Part shown: piece after piece, positions 2,203 through 17,417 of the stretch
Layout of the letters: every line of letters starts with the position of its first letter
Position numbering within the stretch: position 1 is the stretch's first letter
DNA from: Microcaldota archaeon
GTDB lineage: Archaea; Micrarchaeota; Micrarchaeia; Anstonellales; Bilamarchaeaceae
DNA: 64,000 bases
Reading direction: 5' to 3'
Assembly (NCBI GenBank): GCA_016932815.1
Contig: JAFGCC010000020.1
Location: 1 to 64,000, forward strand
Program-made: the position numbers and the translations under genes
The notes under the pieces: generated by a model
Seen by the model: only the letters and a program-made list of their open reading frames with translations
Database searches by the model: none
Told to the model about the DNA's origin: nothing

Positions 2203-5200
2203 TCACTTTTTCTTCCATAGGTATGCAAATGCCACAATCACCACGGCGGCGAGTATGAAGGGCATGATATTTGCGGCTTCCTCCGAAACCTGCGCGCCCC
2301 GCCCATAGCCTTCAACCTCGAAGTATTCTTCCTCCGATTCGAAGGAATAGGAGAGTTCCCCGCTCCCTTCAACCACGATTGTGTTCGCGCCGGGGAGCAC
2401 CTCATGCTCGCTCTCAATTCCGCCAAGGCTCACGCGCAAGAGCGCAGGGCCATCCCCCTCCCAATAAACCTCAATGGTGGTGTTGTATTCTGTGATGTGC
2501 GGCTCCACGTACGCCTTTTCGTAGAACACAAAGTGCGTGAAATCCGAATACCCCGAATGCTCCGGGGCATACATCGCATAAGCATGGGTGGGAAGCGCGG
2601 TAAAGTCCCCCTTGTGCGTAACCCTCAGCGTGTATTCCAGCTCAACTCCCCCTTCAAGCGAATTGAGGAAGAATACTGCCCTATCCTCCCGTGCTTCCAT
2701 CCGGTATCCCCCATAATAATGCCAGTACCTGCCCGCTTCCTCGCGCACTATCTCTGAGCCAAGGGGAATCGGGTCCTCAATTGCAACGTATTCTCCGCTC
2801 CCATTTACTGTGAGCTTTACCTTTATCTCATCTCCAACACGCGAAACAGTCCTCTCGTATTCGCGCGAAACCGCTATTTCCCCTTCGGGTATCTCATCTG
2901 AGTAGTGCGCAATCCCGAGAGTATAGTATAGGGGCCCGAATCCGTCGCGCTCAAGTGTTAGCTTATGGCTCCCATCAATAAGCGCAATTTCCACGCTGCC
3001 AACGCCCTCATCCCCCATCCTTCCCTCATAAACTTTCTCCCCGTCCAGATAAACCGTTGCAATGTAATCCGAGCGCAATTCCCCGCTCACTTTCGCATAT
3101 TCCGTCAAAGCGAGAACCGTGCGCGCGGTATCCTTTGTGCTAACCCAGTACCTGCCCTTTTTCTCAAGCATGAGCCAGTTGACGCACTTCCTCGCATATT
3201 CCATCTCGCCATTTTTGGCAAAGGCTTCTAGCGCATAGGAAGTAAGCTCGGTGTCGCTGTGGTACCAGCGGTATCCCTCATCGTATTCAAGCCTGCAGTA
3301 ATCCCCGAAGCACTCAAGAGAGGAAATGAGCCCTGAGCACTCCCCGTCCGTGCACTTTGATAATTCGCCAAACACCCCCTCTGGATACGAGGATGCTTCC
3401 CCCCCGGCAATCCTGTTCAACACGAAGAGGGCATACGGGCTTTGCGCACCCCTTAGCCATTTGAGCCCGGATTCGTAAACCTCAAAATCAACGGAAATTC
3501 CCGCATTTTCCGCAATGAAGAGCCCGTCCATCACGTATGCGCTAATGCGCTCATCCTGCCCGTTAAACCAGCCCCAGCTGCCATCAGTGTTCTGGTGGGC
3601 GTATATGCGCCCTAGGCCGTCGTCTATCAATGCGGAGAGGTTCTCTTCCCCCGCGTATTCTAGCCCAAGTTCATCAAGCGCATAAATAAGCACGACATCC
3701 GGAAGGAACCCGCTCATAGTCTGCTCTATGCACCCATAAGGATAGCTAACAAGGTAGTCCAGGCTCTCGAAAGCCGAGGCCAAAACCGATGAATGCAGCG
3801 AAAGCGAGACCTCCGCACCTTCTGGCGAATCGTAATCAACGCTCCCAGAATCATCCACTGCCCCGGATTCTCCTTCGAACACTTCTATTCCCATTTCCTT
3901 TATCTGGAGAGGAAGCTTTACCGCGTCCCCTTCGCCGCCTTCAACCCAAAGCAGGAGCTCCCCATCCCCCCTCCCAATTGCCTTGAGCGGGAAATACGCG
4001 GTAACATCTTCCCCGCTCTCCAGGCTTAAGTATCGCACCGGGCTCCCCAGAACCTCTATTCCCCCCGCGGTTTCCAAAGTGGCCTTGAAAGTAACCCTCT
4101 CATTCCCGTAATTAAATAGGGTTGCGGGGATTGCCGCAACGTCCCCGACCACCAATGCCGCAGGAGGGCTCAGCCTGCCTATTACGTCCTTTGTGACTAT
4201 TGCGGAACTAGTTCCCATGCCCACGCTCGTTCCCCTGGAAGCGACCGCGGTTATGTTCCATGTGGTAAGGGTGTCTGGTATGTGCCAGACCACTTCCGCT
4301 TCCCCACCTTCTAAAAACACATAAGGAATCCAGAGCGCGGTTTCTATGAACTTCTCGCGCACCCTTATCTCGTCCTTGGTCGGAGAAGGCGCATCCTGCG
4401 CGGATTCTTCCACAATGCCCCCTGCCGCATAAACCAGCCCGTCTGAGCGGTATGGGTAGATGTTTGAGTCCCAGCTAAAGAGGATGGTGTAGTCTTCAAG
4501 CGGATAGCCATAGAAATACGAATAGACGTCCCTCCATTGCGCATCCGAGAGGTCTATTATCGCCTGGTCCACGATTGCTACCGAGGCTGTTGCATCTGAA
4601 GCCTCCCCCCCGCTTTGCGCGCTTATTTGGATCGTAGCGGTGTCTCCTGGCCCATATACCTCGTTGTGCCCAAGCCCCACTTCCAGCCATTCTTCGCCGC
4701 GCACAAGGTAATTGGCGTACCCGGAATACCTTTCCCCGCCTTTTATCGCATAGAAATTTATGCTGCTAGTCTCCCCCGCCTCCATGTAAAGCGAATTCAC
4801 CCCGGGCTCTATTTCAAAGAATGAAATCCCAAGCCCTCCTCCTTCGGAGATTGCAATGAGCCTGCCCGCAACCGGGGAGGTTAGGGTAACTTCCATCCGT
4901 TCTCCCGCAGAGTATTCCTCCTTGTCCAGCGAAACTTCCAGGTAGCTCCAGCTCCAATAGCTCCATTCCGAAACATAGAAATACTCAAATGCCTCCGCTG
5001 AGCCGGCTTCTGCGTAAACTACGTATTGCCCGGTTTCGGTTGGGGTAAATGAGAAGCTGTATTGCCCATCCTGAGTTTCAAATTCATCTTCGAAGATTGG
5101 AGTTGCGTTCTCCATCCATTCATTCCTGCTCCGGTAATAATAGTAATCCTCCTCGTGGTATATGCGTATGCTCCCGGAAGTGTCAAGCGCCTCCTCGTTT

Positions 5201-6528
5201 TCGTCGTAGGAGAGGATTGTAACCAGGCCGCTCTCGTTTGCCTGCATATCCTCTGCAATTATGTTGAGGTTTTCCTTTTCTAAGACCGCAACGACCAGTG
5301 ATTCCTCGCTCACTACCTCACTATCGTCGGCAACTTTCACGCCTATCTCGTACATCCCGGTCTCGTTTGCCCCCCTCCACTCAATTTTGCCCGTTCCGTT
5401 TACGGTATATACGGTTCCCTCCGCAACCTTCACTTTGTTGTAGTAGGGTATGCACATGCAATCAAGGTAGTAAGGCGACCAGTAATAAGGGGAAGCGTAA
5501 ATCTCAAAATCCGCCTGGGCGGATGCGCTCTGCCCAAAATAGTATTGGGTATCCACTTCAACCCAGATTGTTTCGTTTACAACGAACCTCTCCTTGTTAG
5601 CAGAAAGCGACACCTTTATCTCGGGCCGCTTGTATTCTTGCACCTCAAAGGAATGCCAGCCCACGTAATCCTCCCCCTTGCGCATGGAAACCGAATACCT
5701 CCCTAGTGCAGCCTCCTCATCCAGCACGAAATCCAGGCTTACGCGAGAGTTCACAACCCCCACGGGCTTAGAATAAACGACTCCGTAGTCCGGGTCGCGT
5801 ATTTCCACATCCACTTCCCCTTCTATCGTTTCGTAGGAATCCCCGTTGTCCAGGAAAATTACCGACGAAAAATGCACCGTTTCCCCAGGCTGGTATAGCT
5901 CCTTGTCGCTAAAAGCGTAGGCCGCATAATCCTCATAATAATACATCTCCCTCTCGTAAATAGGGTAATCGTAGCTGTATATCTCCATGCTGGTTTCTTC
6001 TCCCACGTATTCTGCGGAAATCGCACTCAGGTTTTCCGTTTCAAAATTGAATATCCCCCATGCCCCGGAAACGGTTTCCACGATTGTCTCGTTTTCCTCT
6101 TTCCCATAATGCAGGAAAATGTTCCCCCCTTCTATCGCGCTCCCATCCTCCTTGTACAAGAACAGTCCCTTCCCCTCCTTTCCTATCGCTGCGGCAATCC
6201 CTATTGAAGTTACCCTGAATTCCTCCTCTTCGTCTTCTAGGTCGTCGCGCACCCTCACGGTGTAATCCCCAGAAGGCAGCGAGAATTCAAACGATTCGTA
6301 GGAGTAGCGGTAATACCCCCATTCGTCCCTCCCGCTCCCTTGCACCGCGCGCAATTCCGAATATGCCTCTTCCCCCCCTTCTGCGTAAATTGTAAAGACA
6401 ATGGTGCCTTCGGCTCCGCTTACCCCTATTTCTATGTTCTCATAGGGAGCGTATTCTGAGGCGGCGTCAATCCAGAGTGCATTTGCGCACCCTGCCAAAA
6501 TAAGCAATGCGAGGAAGAACCTGTTCAT
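2203..6528 (-). CDS. alpha-2-macroglobulin-like surface lipoprotein
   Basis: This 1441-residue protein is of the alpha-2-macroglobulin family, which traps proteases in animals and bacteria. The N-terminus is a lipoprotein-type signal (LLILAGC, Cys about residue 14). The body has beta-rich MG-like domains. The intact thioester motif YGCIEQ sits near residue 933 and is followed by an alpha/alpha-toroid-like region with Trp/Gly repeats (GSWGWFNG). A C-terminal receptor-like domain ends in one membrane helix (FILAAVVIVAFAYLW) and KKK. A dual lipid plus C-terminal anchor is unusual. A TATA box (TCTTTAAAT) and a GGAG site precede the start. No penicillin-binding-protein 1C partner, usual beside bacterial homologues, is present. 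A defensive or adhesive role at the cell surface is inferred. Confidence 0.88.
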   Translation of the reverse strand: MNRFFLALLILAGCANALWIDAASEYAPYENIEIGVSGAEGTIVFTIYAEGGEEAYSELRAVQGSGRDEWGYYRYSYESFEFSLPSGDYTVRVRDDLEDEEEEFRVTSIGIAAAIGKEGKGLFLYKEDGSAIEGGNIFLHYGKEENETIVETVSGAWGIFNFETENLSAISAEYVGEETSMEIYSYDYPIYEREMYYYEDYAAYAFSDKELYQPGETVHFSSVIFLDNGDSYETIEGEVDVEIRDPDYGVVYSKPVGVVNSRVSLDFVLDEEAALGRYSVSMRKGEDYVGWHSFEVQEYKRPEIKVSLSANKERFVVNETIWVEVDTQYYFGQSASAQADFEIYASPYYWSPYYLDCMCIPYYNKVKVAEGTVYTVNGTGKIEWRGANETGMYEIGVKVADDSEVVSEESLVVAVLEKENLNIIAEDMQANESGLVTILSYDENEEALDTSGSIRIYHEEDYYYYRSRNEWMENATPIFEDEFETQDGQYSFSFTPTETGQYVVYAEAGSAEAFEYFYVSEWSYWSWSYLEVSLDKEEYSAGERMEVTLTSPVAGRLIAISEGGGLGISFFEIEPGVNSLYMEAGETSSINFYAIKGGERYSGYANYLVRGEEWLEVGLGHNEVYGPGDTATIQISAQSGGEASDATASVAIVDQAIIDLSDAQWRDVYSYFYGYPLEDYTILFSWDSNIYPYRSDGLVYAAGGIVEESAQDAPSPTKDEIRVREKFIETALWIPYVFLEGGEAEVVWHIPDTLTTWNITAVASRGTSVGMGTSSAIVTKDVIGRLSPPAALVVGDVAAIPATLFNYGNERVTFKATLETAGGIEVLGSPVRYLSLESGEDVTAYFPLKAIGRGDGELLLWVEGGEGDAVKLPLQIKEMGIEVFEGESGAVDDSGSVDYDSPEGAEVSLSLHSSVLASAFESLDYLVSYPYGCIEQTMSGFLPDVVLIYALDELGLEYAGEENLSALIDDGLGRIYAHQNTDGSWGWFNGQDERISAYVMDGLFIAENAGISVDFEVYESGLKWLRGAQSPYALFVLNRIAGGEASSYPEGVFGELSKCTDGECSGLISSLECFGDYCRLEYDEGYRWYHSDTELTSYALEAFAKNGEMEYARKCVNWLMLEKKGRYWVSTKDTARTVLALTEYAKVSGELRSDYIATVYLDGEKVYEGRMGDEGVGSVEIALIDGSHKLTLERDGFGPLYYTLGIAHYSDEIPEGEIAVSREYERTVSRVGDEIKVKLTVNGSGEYVAIEDPIPLGSEIVREEAGRYWHYYGGYRMEAREDRAVFFLNSLEGGVELEYTLRVTHKGDFTALPTHAYAMYAPEHSGYSDFTHFVFYEKAYVEPHITEYNTTIEVYWEGDGPALLRVSLGGIESEHEVLPGANTIVVEGSGELSYSFESEEEYFEVEGYGRGAQVSEEAANIMPFILAAVVIVAFAYLWKKK

Positions 6529-8368: not shown

Positions 8369-10543
8369 CTAGCGGTAAACGTAATTTAGCAGCGCTTCCC
8401 CGGGGCTCCACACCTGGAGGATTTCGGTGTCCCCTCCGTGCTTTTCTATCTCCTTTCTTCCTTTTTCTATTATCTGCCCGAACGTTGCCTTCTCCTGGCC
8501 CTGGCTCCCAATTAGGAGGTCCACAAGCGAGTTGGTGACCTGCCCCCTCCCGGTTGCGGTGTTGCTAATAAAGCGCAAATCCGTGCCCCCCCTTTCTTCT
8601 ATGTAGGAAGCGATGTCCCCGCTGCTCCCGCAGCTTCCGGGGATGAACAAAACGTGCCCCTTTTTCCCCTTGAATATCCCGCTTGGGAAGTTCTTTCCCA
8701 GGCTGTAGCTGTGCCCGCGGAAAGTGATTATCCGGTTTGGGTTCTTCTTTAGCTCCCTTGAAACGAATTTCACATTCTCTTCTTTGGTTTCCCCCATAAA
8801 CAGCACTATCCTCGCAGTGGGCGTTTCGTAGATTAGTTCCCCACCCTCCCCCGTTTTGGGCTTGCCGTATTTTGCAAACCACCTCTTGCTTGCAGGATAG
8901 TGGTCACTCCCCGTATCCTCCTTGTCGAAGACCTGCAATATCTGCAGCTTCCCGTCTTTAGTGTAGAGTGCCGGGTCGAAGTACGCATTCTCCCCCAATT
9001 TCCTAACCTCCGCAAAGTGTTCTTTGATAAGCGGGGCTTCCTCCCCGTATAGCTCGTAGAGCAGGTACTCTATCCCGCTAAGGATTTTTTCCTCCCCGTA
9101 TCCTTTAGCCTCCCCGAGTTTTCTTAGCTTGTCCCTGAACCTGAGGCCAAGCTTGTATTTTGCACTCGGAAGGCCCTTTATCTTGTGCACCGCGTTTGCC
9201 ATGAGGAAGAAGTCGCCGCCATTGAAAAAGTCCTTTTTAAGCGGCCACAGAACAGAATCGATGACTTCCACGGCTTCCTTTTCGGTAAACAGGGAGTTCT
9301 TCCTGCCGTAGAACCGGTCGTAGTTTACCGCCCGCAGCACCAGGTTGCTGCATTCTTTGGTGCCCAGCAAATTGTACCTCTTTAGCAGGTACCCAACCCC
9401 CTTCTTCCCGATTCCCGCTTTGAGCCGGTCGAAGAGCAGGTGGTTGGTGGAAGTGTAAAAATTTTTCGGATCGCTAAGGAGGAGGGTAAAGACCTGCATG
9501 TCCGATAGGCTATTGAGGTACTCCATGCGCTTTGGGGTATCATCGTGCAGTTCGTCCAGGGGCGCCCCGAGGTCGCTTGCCGCCGGGTTCTCAGAGAGCA
9601 TGCTTATGACAAGGTTTTCAAGCTTCCCCTTCCCATGGCAGTATTCTGCGAATTTCCGGGATACCCCAAGGTCCCACATGGACTGGAACGCCCTGGCGCT
9701 TTTGACCTGTTCTGCCACATCCAGCAGTGCGCTTATGATGGTCTCCGGCTTCCGGGCAAACATCTCGCGCAGTTCGTCGTTTGACCTTATGCCCCCCAGC
9801 ACCGCTCTCGTTCCCTTCATGCATATCCGCTTGATTGTGAGCAGGGTTTTCGTGAAATCCTGCGGATTCATGCGGAATACCTCCATCATCCATGCATTTT
9901 CAAAGAGCCTGAAAGCCTCCGGTGCCGCCTCCCCGACCTCCCTTGCAACTCCCACTAGCTCATCCTCATGCTTTTCCAAGAGCTCCTGCAGTTTGCTGCC
10001 TGATAAGACCGTGAGTGCATCCCCTATTTCCATGCTCCCGCCATCCTCGCGCATTGCCTTTGCAACCTCCACAAATGCGCTCCTGTGTTCCCTTAAGGCG
10101 CGCTCGACTTTCGGTTCCTTCATGGCCTCAAAAGCCCAATTCGCCTGCTTCCCGCAGGCTTTTGCAATCTCCACGAACGCCCCGGAATCTTTGTGGAAGA
10201 ACTCCTTGGCCTCCCCGATTGCTTCAAAAGCATCCTCAGTATTTGATTGGGCGGCTATTGCAATCTCCACGAATGCATCCGTATGCGCTACGAACAGCCT
10301 TGCAACATCGGCGTTCCCAAGGGCGGATAATGCCTCATCCGCCCAGTGCCCAGCAGCCTTCCCGATTTCTTCCCGCGCGTCCATTACCTCCCGCAGTTTT
10401 TCCCGCGGATTTTCGGTTTTCATGATTTCGGATATGAGGTTTGCGCTGCAGTAGCGGCCCAGCTCGCCTATTACCTCCTTTTCCGTAATTGCTACTTTGG
10501 GAATCTCTTCTTTTTCCTTAACAGCCTTCTTGAACGCGCACAT
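8369..10543 (-). CDS. helical-repeat protein with caspase-like (clan CD) C-terminal domain
   Basis: This 724-residue protein matches no family I recognise. Residues about 70-290 hold at least five imperfect repeats of 35-40 residues with the pattern aFVEIAkA...AFEAm, suggesting a HEAT- or TPR-like solenoid. Residues about 290-540 are helical without clear repeats. The C-terminal 180 residues alternate strands and helices: ARIVLFMG, then IITFRGHS (His about 611), then VLFIPGSCGSSG (Cys about 638), then LRFISNTATG. The order strand-His, strand-Cys-Gly resembles caspase/gingipain/CHAT peptidases. The catalytic reading is inference. A GAATAAATAG box lies upstream, so it has its own promoter. It converges on the ThyX-like gene. 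Confidence 0.7.
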   Translation of the reverse strand: MCAFKKAVKEKEEIPKVAITEKEVIGELGRYCSANLISEIMKTENPREKLREVMDAREEIGKAAGHWADEALSALGNADVARLFVAHTDAFVEIAIAAQSNTEDAFEAIGEAKEFFHKDSGAFVEIAKACGKQANWAFEAMKEPKVERALREHRSAFVEVAKAMREDGGSMEIGDALTVLSGSKLQELLEKHEDELVGVAREVGEAAPEAFRLFENAWMMEVFRMNPQDFTKTLLTIKRICMKGTRAVLGGIRSNDELREMFARKPETIISALLDVAEQVKSARAFQSMWDLGVSRKFAEYCHGKGKLENLVISMLSENPAASDLGAPLDELHDDTPKRMEYLNSLSDMQVFTLLLSDPKNFYTSTNHLLFDRLKAGIGKKGVGYLLKRYNLLGTKECSNLVLRAVNYDRFYGRKNSLFTEKEAVEVIDSVLWPLKKDFFNGGDFFLMANAVHKIKGLPSAKYKLGLRFRDKLRKLGEAKGYGEEKILSGIEYLLYELYGEEAPLIKEHFAEVRKLGENAYFDPALYTKDGKLQILQVFDKEDTGSDHYPASKRWFAKYGKPKTGEGGELIYETPTARIVLFMGETKEENVKFVSRELKKNPNRIITFRGHSYSLGKNFPSGIFKGKKGHVLFIPGSCGSSGDIASYIEERGGTDLRFISNTATGRGQVTNSLVDLLIGSQGQEKATFGQIIEKGRKEIEKHGGDTEILQVWSPGEALLNYVYR

Positions 10544-13441: not shown

Positions 13442-13963
13442 TCAAGCGAGCAGTTCTGCCATCTTCTCCTTAAGAAGCCATTGAGCCTCAGCCGCCGGCA
13501 GTTCCGCAACTTCCCCCTCATTGAAAGGCCCATAAACGTTTTCGTCAAGGCCTTTATAGGGGCTTATGTTTTTGAGCAGCCTAATCCTTTTAATATTATC
13601 CTTTTTCGGGCCCGTGCCGTTTTCCTCAAAAATGAATGCCAATTGCGCATCGTTCTCCTCGATGTCATGGGAGAGGTGGCCCAGGAAATCCGCCTCCTCG
13701 GCGGTCATGCCCATGGTTTCCTTTTTCCCGCGGAGTGCCAGGAGGACTAGCTTCTCGTTTCTTTTGTTCACGATTGCGCGCGCAATCTTGCGCAGGTTCT
13801 CGTACTCTTTTATCACGAGCAGGTTCTGGGTTTCCAATGCCTCCCCCCTTTTTTCCTCCAGGAACCCTTTTAGCTGGGTATAGAAGTCCTCTTCCACGGG
13901 GCAAAGCTCGCTTGAAGCGATTTCGCTTCGCTGCATTTCCCTTAGCCGTGAATAATTGAGCAT
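13442..13963 (-). CDS. gins51: GINS complex subunit (Gins51/Gins15 type)
   Basis: This is a subunit of GINS, which with Cdc45/RecJ and MCM forms the replicative helicase complex. The 173-residue protein has the N-terminal helical A domain (LNYSRLREMQRSEI...YTQLKGFLEEK). The C-terminal B domain is PYKGLDENVYGPFNEGEVAELPAAEAQWLL, a strong match to the Sld5/Gins51 class. The track start is a TTG; the ATG at 13963 fits better. A TATTTAAG box lies at 14001-14008. It leads the operon GINS-L44e-S27e-aIF2alpha-Nop10-PAC2, linking replication and translation. Confidence 0.88.
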   Translation of the reverse strand: MLNYSRLREMQRSEIASSELCPVEEDFYTQLKGFLEEKRGEALETQNLLVIKEYENLRKIARAIVNKRNEKLVLLALRGKKETMGMTAEEADFLGHLSHDIEENDAQLAFIFEENGTGPKKDNIKRIRLLKNISPYKGLDENVYGPFNEGEVAELPAAEAQWLLKEKMAELLA

Positions 13964-14129
13964 CTTAACCCTAACCCAGAGCAACTTATGCGGGGAAGTC
14001 CTTAAATACCCCTGCGGCTTTCCCCGCAGTTCCCTCGTTCATGGGCCCTTTCTGGGAGGAACATTTAAATTCATAATAGTCTTATACTTAACCTGCCGTA
14101 TCAGAAGATGGGTGGGAAGGAATTTGGGT

Positions 14130-14795
14130 ATGTCCGCGAGTGGTAAGGCTAGGGAAGTTGAGATTCTCCCGGCCATCCTGGTAAAATCAAGGGAGAGCTT
14201 CCTAGAGAGCGTGGAGAAGGTCACTCCTTTCGTAAAACAGGTCCACGTGGACGTAATGGACGACATATTCGTGCCCAACGAAACAATCGGCCCCGATGAA
14301 TTGAACCCCCTTCCTGCGGGCATTGGCTATTCTTTCCACTGGATGGTGGAAGCCCCGGAGCAGGAAATCGTGAAGATGAAGGGCACCCACATGCACCTGC
14401 TCCACATAGAAACCGTAAAATCCGACGCTCATTTTGAGAGGATGAGGGAAGCGATAAAATCCTCCGGAGGGAGGATGGGGATTTCCCTTAGCCCCGACAC
14501 CCAGCTTAGCGAGGTTCTCCCGTATGCGGATTCGGTTTCCCGCTTCCTTGTGATGTCGGTGGTCCCAGGATTCTACGGGCAGACATACATCCCGGAAGTT
14601 GAGCCCAAGATTGCGAGGCTTCGCGAGGAATGCCCCTCCCACGACATAGAGGTGGATGGCGGGATAACCTTTGAAACCGCAAAAAGGGCCGCGCATGCCG
14701 GGGCGAACATGCTAGCAAGTGCGAGCACCCTGTTCAACGCCTCCGATATCGGAGAGGCAATCAGGGAGATGAAAAGGGCGGCAGAAGAGGCGTGA
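14130..14795 (+). CDS. rpe: ribulose-phosphate 3-epimerase
   Basis: This enzyme interconverts ribulose-5-P and xylulose-5-P. The 221-residue TIM barrel has PAIL at strand 1, VHVDVMDDIFVPN (metal His and Asp) near 39-51, SFHWMV (metal His) near 70, VMSVVPGFYGQ near 140-150 and EVDGGI (catalytic Asp) near 175. The ATG at 14130 is taken because the family begins a few residues before ILPAIL and because a CATTTAAAT box lies at 14062-14070. It opens an operon of non-oxidative pentose-phosphate genes; the transketolase start follows after 4 nt. Confidence 0.93.
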   Translation: MSASGKAREVEILPAILVKSRESFLESVEKVTPFVKQVHVDVMDDIFVPNETIGPDELNPLPAGIGYSFHWMVEAPEQEIVKMKGTHMHLLHIETVKSDAHFERMREAIKSSGGRMGISLSPDTQLSEVLPYADSVSRFLVMSVVPGFYGQTYIPEVEPKIARLREECPSHDIEVDGGITFETAKRAAHAGANMLASASTLFNASDIGEAIREMKRAAEEA

Positions 14796-14799
14796 AGAG

Positions 14800-15657
14800 A
14801 TGGCGTTTGAAAAAACAACGGATATAAAGGAACTCAGGCTTGCGGCAAATTCAATCCGCAGAGACATAGTGGAAATGATTACTGCAGCGGGCTCCGGGCA
14901 TCCTGCTGGCTCCCTGGGGCTTGCAGACGTTTTCTCCGCCCTCTTTTTCGGGGTAATGGAGCATGACCCGCAGAATCCGGGCTGGGAAGGGCGCGACCGC
15001 TTCGTGCTCTCAAACGGCCATGTGTGCCCGGTTTTGTATTCCGCCCTTGCGGAAACCGGGTATTTCCCCAAAGAGGAGTTAATTACATTGCGCAAGATGG
15101 GTTCCAGGCTCCAGGGCCACCCGCACAAGGGCGCGCTCCCTGGAATAGAGAACTCCTCAGGGCCCCTTGGGCAGGGACTGCCAATTGCAGTGGGGATGGC
15201 CCTTGTTGCAAAGCGCGAAGGAAGGCCCCAGAGGGCATACTGCGTGGTATCAGATGGGGAGCAGCAGGAGGGGCAAATCTGGGAAGCGGCAATGCTCGCC
15301 GCAAAATACAAGCTTTCCAACCTGATTGTGACAATGGACCGCAACTACATCCAGATTGACGGGAGCACGATGGAAGTGAACCCGCTTGACCCAATATCCG
15401 ACAAATACCGCGCGTTCAACTGGAACGTGATTGAAGTTGACGGCCATGACATGGAGGCCCTCCTCCTTGCATACTCAAAGGCGCAGAAAGAGCAGGAGAA
15501 GCCCACGATGATTATAGCCAGGACCGTCCCCGGAAAGGGGGTGCCCTTCATGGAGGGCCTGGTGGGCTGGCACGGGAAAGCTCCCAAGGAAGATGATGCG
15601 CAGAAGGCTTACGCGGCACTTGAAGATGAGCGCAAAAAGATAACTGAGGGTGCTTGA
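14800..15657 (+). CDS. transketolase, N-terminal (TPP-binding) subunit
   Basis: This 285-residue half-transketolase is split as in many archaea. It binds thiamine diphosphate and Mg and moves two-carbon units between sugar phosphates. It shows SGHPAGSLGLADV near 28-40, SNGHVCPVLYS, GPLGQGLPIAVGMAL, and the TPP motif SDGEQQEGQIWEA...NYIQIDG around 147-186. The N-terminal region ends before the pyrimidine-binding domain, which is encoded by the next gene 2 nt downstream. Confidence 0.94.
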   Translation: MAFEKTTDIKELRLAANSIRRDIVEMITAAGSGHPAGSLGLADVFSALFFGVMEHDPQNPGWEGRDRFVLSNGHVCPVLYSALAETGYFPKEELITLRKMGSRLQGHPHKGALPGIENSSGPLGQGLPIAVGMALVAKREGRPQRAYCVVSDGEQQEGQIWEAAMLAAKYKLSNLIVTMDRNYIQIDGSTMEVNPLDPISDKYRAFNWNVIEVDGHDMEALLLAYSKAQKEQEKPTMIIARTVPGKGVPFMEGLVGWHGKAPKEDDAQKAYAALEDERKKITEGA

Positions 15658-15659
15658 AC

Positions 15660-16631
15660 ATGGCAGTCGAATTCATCGAAAACCCGGAAGCAAAAAAATC
15701 CACCCGCGACGGCTTTGGGCGCGCGCTTGAGGAAATAGGGGAAAAAGACGGGAACGCATGGGCCCTTACTGCCGATGTTTCCGAATCCTCGCGCACCCAC
15801 TGGTTTGCAGAAAAATTCCCCGCAAGGTTCGTGCAGGTTGGGGTTGCGGAGCAGAACCTCGCCTCGGTTGCGGCAGGGATAGCAACATGTGGCAAGCGCC
15901 CGTTCATTTCCGCCTTTGGCGCATTCTCGCCTGGGAGGAACTTTGACCAGATTCGCGTTTCAATATGCTATAGCAACCTGCCGGTTGTAATCCACGCATC
16001 GCATACCGGCCTTACCGTGGGCCCGGACGGGGCGTCGCACCAGATTCTAGAAGACGTTGCGCTAATGCGCTCGCTTCCGAACATGAACGTGCTTGTCCCA
16101 TCGGATTTTGAGCAGGTAAAAAAGGCAACCCACGCGCTCTACGAGGCCAAGGCCCCAGGGTATTTGCGCACTTCCAGGGAGAAAGTACCCGTATTTACCA
16201 CTCCGGAAACCCCGCTTTCTTTAGGAGGCTCAAACACCTTCCTAGAGGGCGGAGATGCGGCAATCCTTGCCTGCGGGCCGCTGGTTCCCTATGCGCTTGA
16301 AGCGGCCAGGGAATTGAAGAGTGAAGGCATCTCCTGCTCGGTAGTGGACATGTATTCAATCAAGCCGATTGACCGCGCAAAAATCGAGGAGATGGCAAAG
16401 AAAACCGGCGTTCTCGTAACCGTTGAGGAGCACCAGGTGCACGGCGGCATGGGAAGCGCGGTTGCAGAAGTGTTCTGTTCCTTGAAAATCGATGCGACCT
16501 TGCGCATCCACGGAATGTACGATAGGTTCGGCGAGTCCGGAGGCGCAAAGGAGCTCCTCAAAAAATACAAGCTGGATGCTGCGGGCATAAAGGAAGTCGT
16601 TTCAGAGGAAGTGAAGAAAAATAAGGGCTGA
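15660..16631 (+). CDS. transketolase, C-terminal subunit
   Basis: The 323-residue partner of the previous gene has the pyrimidine-binding domain (ADVSESSRTHWFAEKFPARFVQVGVAEQNLASVAAGIA, with the catalytic Glu in AEQN near 63). It also has the C-terminal domain (GGDAAILACGPLVPYALEAA, VVDMYSIKPID, EEHQVHGGMGSAVAE). The track begins at a TTG overlapping the upstream stop. The ATG at 15660, 7 nt after GGTG, is the better start. Together the two chains make one full-length enzyme. Confidence 0.94.
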   Translation: MAVEFIENPEAKKSTRDGFGRALEEIGEKDGNAWALTADVSESSRTHWFAEKFPARFVQVGVAEQNLASVAAGIATCGKRPFISAFGAFSPGRNFDQIRVSICYSNLPVVIHASHTGLTVGPDGASHQILEDVALMRSLPNMNVLVPSDFEQVKKATHALYEAKAPGYLRTSREKVPVFTTPETPLSLGGSNTFLEGGDAAILACGPLVPYALEAARELKSEGISCSVVDMYSIKPIDRAKIEEMAKKTGVLVTVEEHQVHGGMGSAVAEVFCSLKIDATLRIHGMYDRFGESGGAKELLKKYKLDAAGIKEVVSEEVKKNKG

Positions 16632-16769
16632 GTGCGGATTCCCCTGGCTCATAAGTGTGCTTTCCCGCGTAGTGCAGCCGGCTTCCCCTAAGTTCTCCAC
16701 CAGAACATCTTATAGTTTTAAATTATGCGCGTTCTAGAATTCCTTAGTTTAAACTGTGGGTGGAAGCAA

Positions 16770-17417
16770 ATGAAATTCTTTTTGGATACTGCGAAAGTCG
16801 AGGAAATAAGGGCGGCAACCGAGCTGGGAATCTGCGATGGGGTAACTACCAACCCGACTCTGATTATGAAGTCCGGGCGCAGCCAGGAGGAAGTCGTAAA
16901 GGAAATCGCGCAGATTGTGCGCGGCCCTGTAAGCGTGGAGGTAATAGCAGAAGACGCCCCGGGCATGGTAAAAGAGGCCGAGGAATTTAGCGCCTGGGCA
17001 TCCAACATAGTAATCAAGGTCCCCATGACCAAAGAGGGCATGAAGGCCGTGCGCATCCTCTCTGAGAAGGGAATAAAGACCAACGTAACCCTCGTTTTCT
17101 CTGCCACGCAGGCATTAATCGCCGCAAAGGCCGGGGCAACCTACATCTCCCCGTTTGTGGGAAGGCTCGACGACGTCTCAAGCGACGGCATGGAGCTAAT
17201 TGAGCAGATAATGGACATCCTTGACAATTACGAATTCGAAACCGAGCTAATAGTTGCCTCGGTGCGCGACCCAATCCACGTGGTTGAGGCCGCAAGGCTC
17301 GGCGCCCACATAGCGACAATCCCCGCAGGAGTCCTAGAGAAGATGTGGAACCACCCCCTAACAGACAAGGGAATAGCGCAGTTCCTAGAAGACTACGAAA
17401 AGTCCAAGAAGGAATAG
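16770..17417 (+). CDS. tal: transaldolase (fructose-6-phosphate aldolase-like, short type)
   Basis: This 215-residue protein belongs to the short transaldolase/FSA (MipB/TalC) subfamily. It moves a dihydroxyacetone unit and so closes the non-oxidative pentose-phosphate pathway. It shows [11 protein letters not shown] at the start, GVTTNPTLI near 26-34, IVIKVPMT with the Schiff-base Lys near 82, [13 protein letters not shown], and SPFVGRLDD near 127. The ATG at 16770 has GGGTGG about 8 nt before it. A TTTTAAATT box at about 16716-16724 gives it its own promoter, 138 nt after tkt. Confidence 0.93.

Follow-up and report, generated by a model that had tools for sequence, protein, structure and literature searches.

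The gene analysed here lies in a 64,000-nucleotide stretch of a Micrarchaeota contig (hereafter the window) and encodes a protein of 724 residues that is probably a solenoid-regulated, single-chain cysteine endopeptidase of the clan CD type, with a His611/Cys638 dyad and with the solenoid choosing the trigger or the client. The open reading frame is located on the minus strand, starting with an ATG at window position 10543 and ending with a stop codon at 8369-8371. In the proposed mechanism, His611 and Cys638 would form the catalytic dyad, the solenoid would bind a partner or a substrate, and the middle module would relay this binding to the peptidase active site, in a manner similar to the TPR and CHAT parts of Csx29. 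Rather than degrading proteins in bulk, the enzyme would probably make a single specific cut in a partner. The positions of the individual parts, together with those of related loci, are given in Table 1.

Table 1. Parts of the gene (rows on the minus strand, window coordinates) and related loci (coordinates of the locus or contig named).
Feature	Position	Strand	Basis
Whole gene, single ORF, 724 aa	8369..10543	minus	
N-terminal alpha solenoid, residues 46-302, seven units of 32-39 aa	9638..10408	minus	AlphaFold2, repeat scoring, homology to the solenoid of the DUF4347/CHAT-like paralogues
Helical middle module, conserved, residues 305-480, LGxPLDxLH...FYTSTNHLLFDRLK	9104..9631	minus	conservation, AlphaFold2
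C-terminal alpha/beta domain, predicted clan-CD-like, residues 484-724	8372..9094	minus	AlphaFold2, structural matches
FRGHS motif, residues 608-612; proposed catalytic His611, codon 8711-8713	8708..8722	minus	
PGSCGS motif, residues 635-640; proposed nucleophile Cys638, codon 8630-8632	8624..8641	minus	
Strand after Cys and conserved TGxGxVT turn, residues 656-671	8531..8578	minus	conservation
His-to-Asp copy, then intact partner, L090	7630-9486 and 9503-11380		
His-to-Asp copy, then intact partner, L092	12125-13522 and 9673-12063		
His-to-Asp copy, then intact partner, L093	5008-6132 and 6148-8973		
Seven type B paralogues in tandem, contig 25 (G000:C25:100231-114500; L078, L079)	about 100.2-114.5 kb		
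Single type B paralogue, contig 25 (G000:C25:166728-168820)	near 167 kb		
Single type B paralogue, contig 13	G000:C13:53584-55200		

In the AlphaFold2 model of the full-length protein, the solenoid region is all-alpha, with pLDDT values mostly between 84 and 96. The seven units (residues 51-301) have a mean pairwise BLOSUM62 score of 15.4, to be compared with 0.19 +/- 1.38 for 500 shuffles, i.e. a Z of 11, which is somewhat flattering because the unit borders were picked by hand from the predicted helices. The helical repeats described in the earlier note are thereby confirmed. The units match none of the Pfam repeats. TALE-like repeats were considered because the canonical unit has 34 residues and because AvrBs3 was matched with an E of 0.015, but this lone phmmer match was lost with a unit profile and with a four-unit query, and the assignment was rejected. 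Also rejected were the Pfam matches of L030 and L007, which have near-perfect repeats (XPC-binding, Phenol_monoox etc.), as these are single-repeat fragments and artefacts of the repetition. In two homologues whose 34-residue units are nearly perfect, the replacements cluster at positions 13, 14, 16, and 17, where pN is 0.44 and 0.51, compared to 0.15 and 0.07 elsewhere. Since the choice of positions was made post hoc from the alignment, and since the units are not independent of one another, the pattern only suggests that they constitute a recognition surface.

The solenoid is followed by the middle module, in which LGxPLDxLH and SDPxxFYTSTNHLLFDRLK are strongly conserved and which invariably precedes the C-terminal domain of this kind (called type A in the following). 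The AlphaFold2 model of the last 241 residues, calculated with 14 homologues, has a pLDDT of 90.8 and a pTM of 0.90. In the numbering of the domain, the strands are found at 49-56, 94-100, 121-126, 147-151, and 172-177, with the His at 128 and the Cys at 155. The strand 604-609 ends in the FR of FRGHS, while the strand 630-634 leads into the loop PGS, after which a helix starts at Cys638, such that the alpha/beta domain proposed earlier, with one strand leading into FRGHS and the next into PGSCGS, is reproduced by the model, and the residue numbers given for the His and the Cys are correct. The hallmark of clan CD, namely a His after one core strand and a Cys after the next, is present in the predicted secondary structure, where no other His or Cys of the domain is near-invariant, and the spacing between the two residues is 27, compared to 26 in human separase, as counted between positions 25 and 51 of its aligned stretch. 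The caspase-haemoglobinase fold is characterized by the sheet order 2-1-3-4-5-6.

Structural realignment of the model gives human separase as the top match (9hma, Z 9.4, rmsd 3.5, 158 residues), not far above unrelated rows, and SAVED-CHAT as the second (8tl0, Z 8.8, 155 residues). Caspase-3, -6, and -7 are found at Z 7.5-7.9 over about 150-171 residues, and a similar picture emerges with the full-length model, which matches the Chaetomium-type separase 5fc2 with Z 8.4 over 171 residues. According to the tool's own warning, a Z of about 8 is a common level, so that the evidence for the fold is moderate, and it is with moderate confidence that we assign the predicted domain to the clan CD type. 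A Foldseek search of the domain model against the PDB yielded nothing at E <= 1e-3, with Arf GTPases ranked first, and a search against viral proteins gave no E below 1e-3. The caspase-like fold put forward in the earlier note thus agrees with the closest predicted matches, separase and SAVED-CHAT, but the Arf GTPases score almost as high.

This last point bears on an alternative in which the domain adopts a different Rossmann-like alpha/beta fold, similar to P-loop GTPases or to hydrolases, and shares with clan CD only a common sheet arrangement. Such an assignment would account for the Arf GTPases interleaving with the caspases in the realignment (Z 7.5-8.7) and leading the Foldseek list. 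However, their alignments cover only 124-138 residues, separase and SAVED-CHAT being the two longest top matches, the invariant residues fall at the positions of the clan CD dyad, and the paralogues that share the same solenoid are CHAT/DUF4347-like. In addition, the Walker A motif is absent in all 25 type A domains, on which ground the GTPase reading of the domain was rejected. We consider a fold of this kind quite improbable.

The sequence searches against known families were all negative. The 724-residue protein has no match in Pfam, NCBIfam, PADLOC, or the PDB sequences, and 15 homologous type A domains have none in Pfam, including CHAT (PF12770) and caspase/metacaspase (C14, PF00656). The type A profile does not match separase among the PDB sequences, and the profile comparison with human separase (C50) gives a non-significant E of 0.41. 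Regarding the earlier assignment to clan CD, it draws support from the CHAT/DUF4347-like paralogues on the same solenoid, but for the domain itself no sequence homology to any family of the clan was found.

Type A homologues are present in 20 of the 301 searched genomes of the phylum, and their distribution is patchy: they are lacking from five genomes of the same genus. A scan of a named genome collection, in which one short peptide pattern was used, gave 13 type A loci, all of them in records of Micrarchaeota, Candidatus ainarchaeum, or uncultured archaeon, in line with the archaeal origin assumed at the outset. No type A relatives were found in IMG/VR or in the phage and plasmid collections, and no type B relatives in IMG/VR, on which grounds a viral origin was rejected. 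As far as searched, the type A family appears to be specific to Micrarchaeota. In a first set of 13 to 17 sequences, F608, R609, G610, H611, S612, G636, C638, and Y647 are invariant. The conservation of the His/Cys pair, which the earlier note had proposed as a check, also holds when the set is enlarged to 25 homologous domains, which all come from Micrarchaeota: the Cys is found in 25/25 and the His in 22/25, the exceptions being paired, pseudoenzyme-like copies.

In these three His-lacking domains (G011 contig 47, G037, and G041), the His is replaced by Asp, and each copy is followed, after 16-62 bp and on the same strand, by an intact type A gene. As seen from the sequences and their hydropathy, the His-to-Asp copies start with a signal-peptide-like stretch, while their intact partners do not, and the tree indicates that the His was lost at least twice independently. 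All three retain the Cys, which means that conservation of the Cys by itself need not imply catalysis. It could accordingly be argued that the domain is a pseudo-peptidase with a caspase/separase-like fold, serving in peptide binding or scaffolding, in which the conserved His and Cys are structural; the preservation of both the Cys and the fold motifs in paralogues that have no His is what one would then expect. We find this improbable, as the His is kept in 22 of the 25 domains, from several families within the phylum, and is lost only in copies adjoining an intact one. A comparable arrangement is known from Csx29, where an inactive caspase-like unit (the pseudo-caspase CHAT1) and an active one (CHAT2) are part of one chain (PMC10028731). 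The pairs of pseudoenzyme and enzyme genes described here can be compared to CHAT1/CHAT2 by analogy, the two units being encoded here by separate genes.

The genome from which the window derives (1,246,214 bases in 25 contigs) encodes nine further solenoid proteins that carry a second C-terminal domain (type B). The type A and type B solenoids are homologous (E 4e-13; profile E 8e-37 for the window protein). The type B domain contains His-Gly and SC[SFL]T motifs (HG...SCST), with the His and the Cys kept in 38/38 domains. Pfam DUF4347 matches 9 of 12 type B proteins, with a best E of 4.5e-4, and CHAT matches one (E 0.17). Against PDB chains, a DUF4347 protein is matched with E 0.013 and SAVED-CHAT with E 0.018, and in these alignments IGgHG is paired with IGHG and the Cys motif with NACCT. 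Each of these matches is weak but they agree with each other, and together they weakly suggest that the type B domain is DUF4347/CHAT-like. Type B is found in 36 of the 301 genomes of the phylum, and some of its domains occur in very long ORFs (L120, 2505 aa; L127, 2183 aa; L122, 1374 aa).

The type A and type B proteins thus have in common the kind of solenoid and the order of His and Cys, but their C-terminal profiles do not align: comparisons with both the small and the enlarged sets gave no significant alignment, that of the enlarged set being roughly collinear but insignificant. The module preceding the C-terminal domain also differs, having GIEYFARY in type B and LGxPLDxLH in type A. The family, specific to Micrarchaeota as far as searched, would have two alternative candidate peptidase domains on one type of solenoid. 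Among the nine type B paralogues, the C-terminal domain has a mean identity of 52%, compared to 35% for the solenoid and the rest of the protein, as would be expected if a constant effector were attached to a variable recognition part. A more far-reaching proposal, which we put forward tentatively and regard as rather unlikely, is that Micrarchaeota, as ultra-small symbiotic archaea, own an NLR- or caspase-like repertoire of sensor peptidases for recognition and proteolysis, in which a repeat solenoid with hypervariable positions is combined with either of two unrelated-looking clan-CD-type domains. This repertoire would have grown to ten genes in a single 1.2 Mb genome, while three others would encode an exported His-to-Asp pseudoenzyme as a partner. 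A minor observation on the termini is that L002, L005, L008, L017, and L025, which include both type A and type B proteins, share the N-terminal start M[FL][IV]FQ/H, absent from the window protein.

It is instructive to compare the protein with known systems. Separase (C50), the best structural match, shares the helical repeats before a C-terminal domain, a protease in separase and a candidate protease here, as well as a GH[GS] motif and a Cys motif that follow two successive strands. On the other hand, the WxVxD that separase has after the following strand is lacking in the type A domain, where the TGxGxVT turn may occupy the position equivalent to the WxVxD of separase and CHAT, and there is no detectable sequence similarity between the two. 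Separase is a eukaryotic enzyme, far larger than the window protein, and acts on cohesin. Csx29, the TPR-CHAT protease of type III-E CRISPR, and SAVED-CHAT combine, as proposed here, a sensor and a C-terminal caspase-like domain in one chain. Unlike in these systems, no CRISPR or SAVED part was found, the repeats are not Pfam TPR, and there is no sequence match at the level of CHAT. The prokaryotic metacaspases/orthocaspases (C14) match at the level of the predicted caspase-like fold and of the putative HC dyad, but type A has no Pfam match. In a 2012 HMM survey, metacaspases were detected in 5 of 114 archaeal genomes, all of them Euryarchaeota (PMC3501461), and proteins with repeats plus a caspase-like domain are already known from bacterial conflict systems (PMC7159879).

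The combination of repeats and a caspase-like domain is accordingly a known architecture, as in Csx29 and separase, of which the Micrarchaeota family, with a domain that the libraries do not recognize, represents a further variant; we found no report of caspase-like enzymes in Micrarchaeota or DPANN in the open-access literature. If the protein is indeed a peptidase, it represents a clan-CD-type enzyme missed by every curated family in the searched libraries, for which homologues and pseudoenzyme pairs are already at hand, along with a repertoire of ten genes in a genome of ~1.2 Mb. Regulated proteolysis in DPANN archaea would then become testable, and data would be gained on where the separase/CHAT branch arose.

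Finally, the genomic surroundings were considered. The neighbours of the gene encode an alpha-2-macroglobulin-like protein, ThyX, a PAC2 protein, ribulose phosphate epimerase, and two small proteins, one of them pilin-like with a class III signal peptide. PADLOC gave no defence match, and there is no defence neighbourhood around the type A genes. With housekeeping neighbours and nothing from PADLOC, the role in immunity or cell death that had been suggested for the protein receives no contextual support. Across the 20 genomes, the type A genes have no recurrent neighbour beyond shared housekeeping stretches, and a conserved operon partner was rejected.

These surroundings could instead point to a clan CD peptidase for housekeeping or cell-surface maturation, in which the solenoid is a mere docking arm for fixed clients. 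Neighbours such as ThyX, class III signal peptide proteins, PAC2, and sugar phosphate genes, with no defence genes among them, are in accord with such a function, and the hydrophobic N-termini of some homologues suggest export or anchoring. Recognition by the solenoid, however, is a better fit to the patchy presence in 20 of 301 Micrarchaeota genomes, to the array of seven diverged type B paralogues in the source genome, and to the repeat positions that vary most in two homologues (13, 14, 16, and 17). We therefore judge the maturation role to be rather unlikely and favour the solenoid-regulated endopeptidase.

Two further observations concern the neighbourhood. The alpha-2-macroglobulin-like protein (1441 aa, window 2203-6528, minus strand) has a TED domain and a thioester-like motif, YGCIEQ, and this protein of the protease-trap type is encoded two genes from the proposed protease. 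In another genome of the same family, a type A gene (L050 5732-8846) is located beside an epimerase-transketolase stretch like that at window 13956-17414; the stretch is 3.4 kb from the window gene, and its being shared with L050 is a trace of common gene order.
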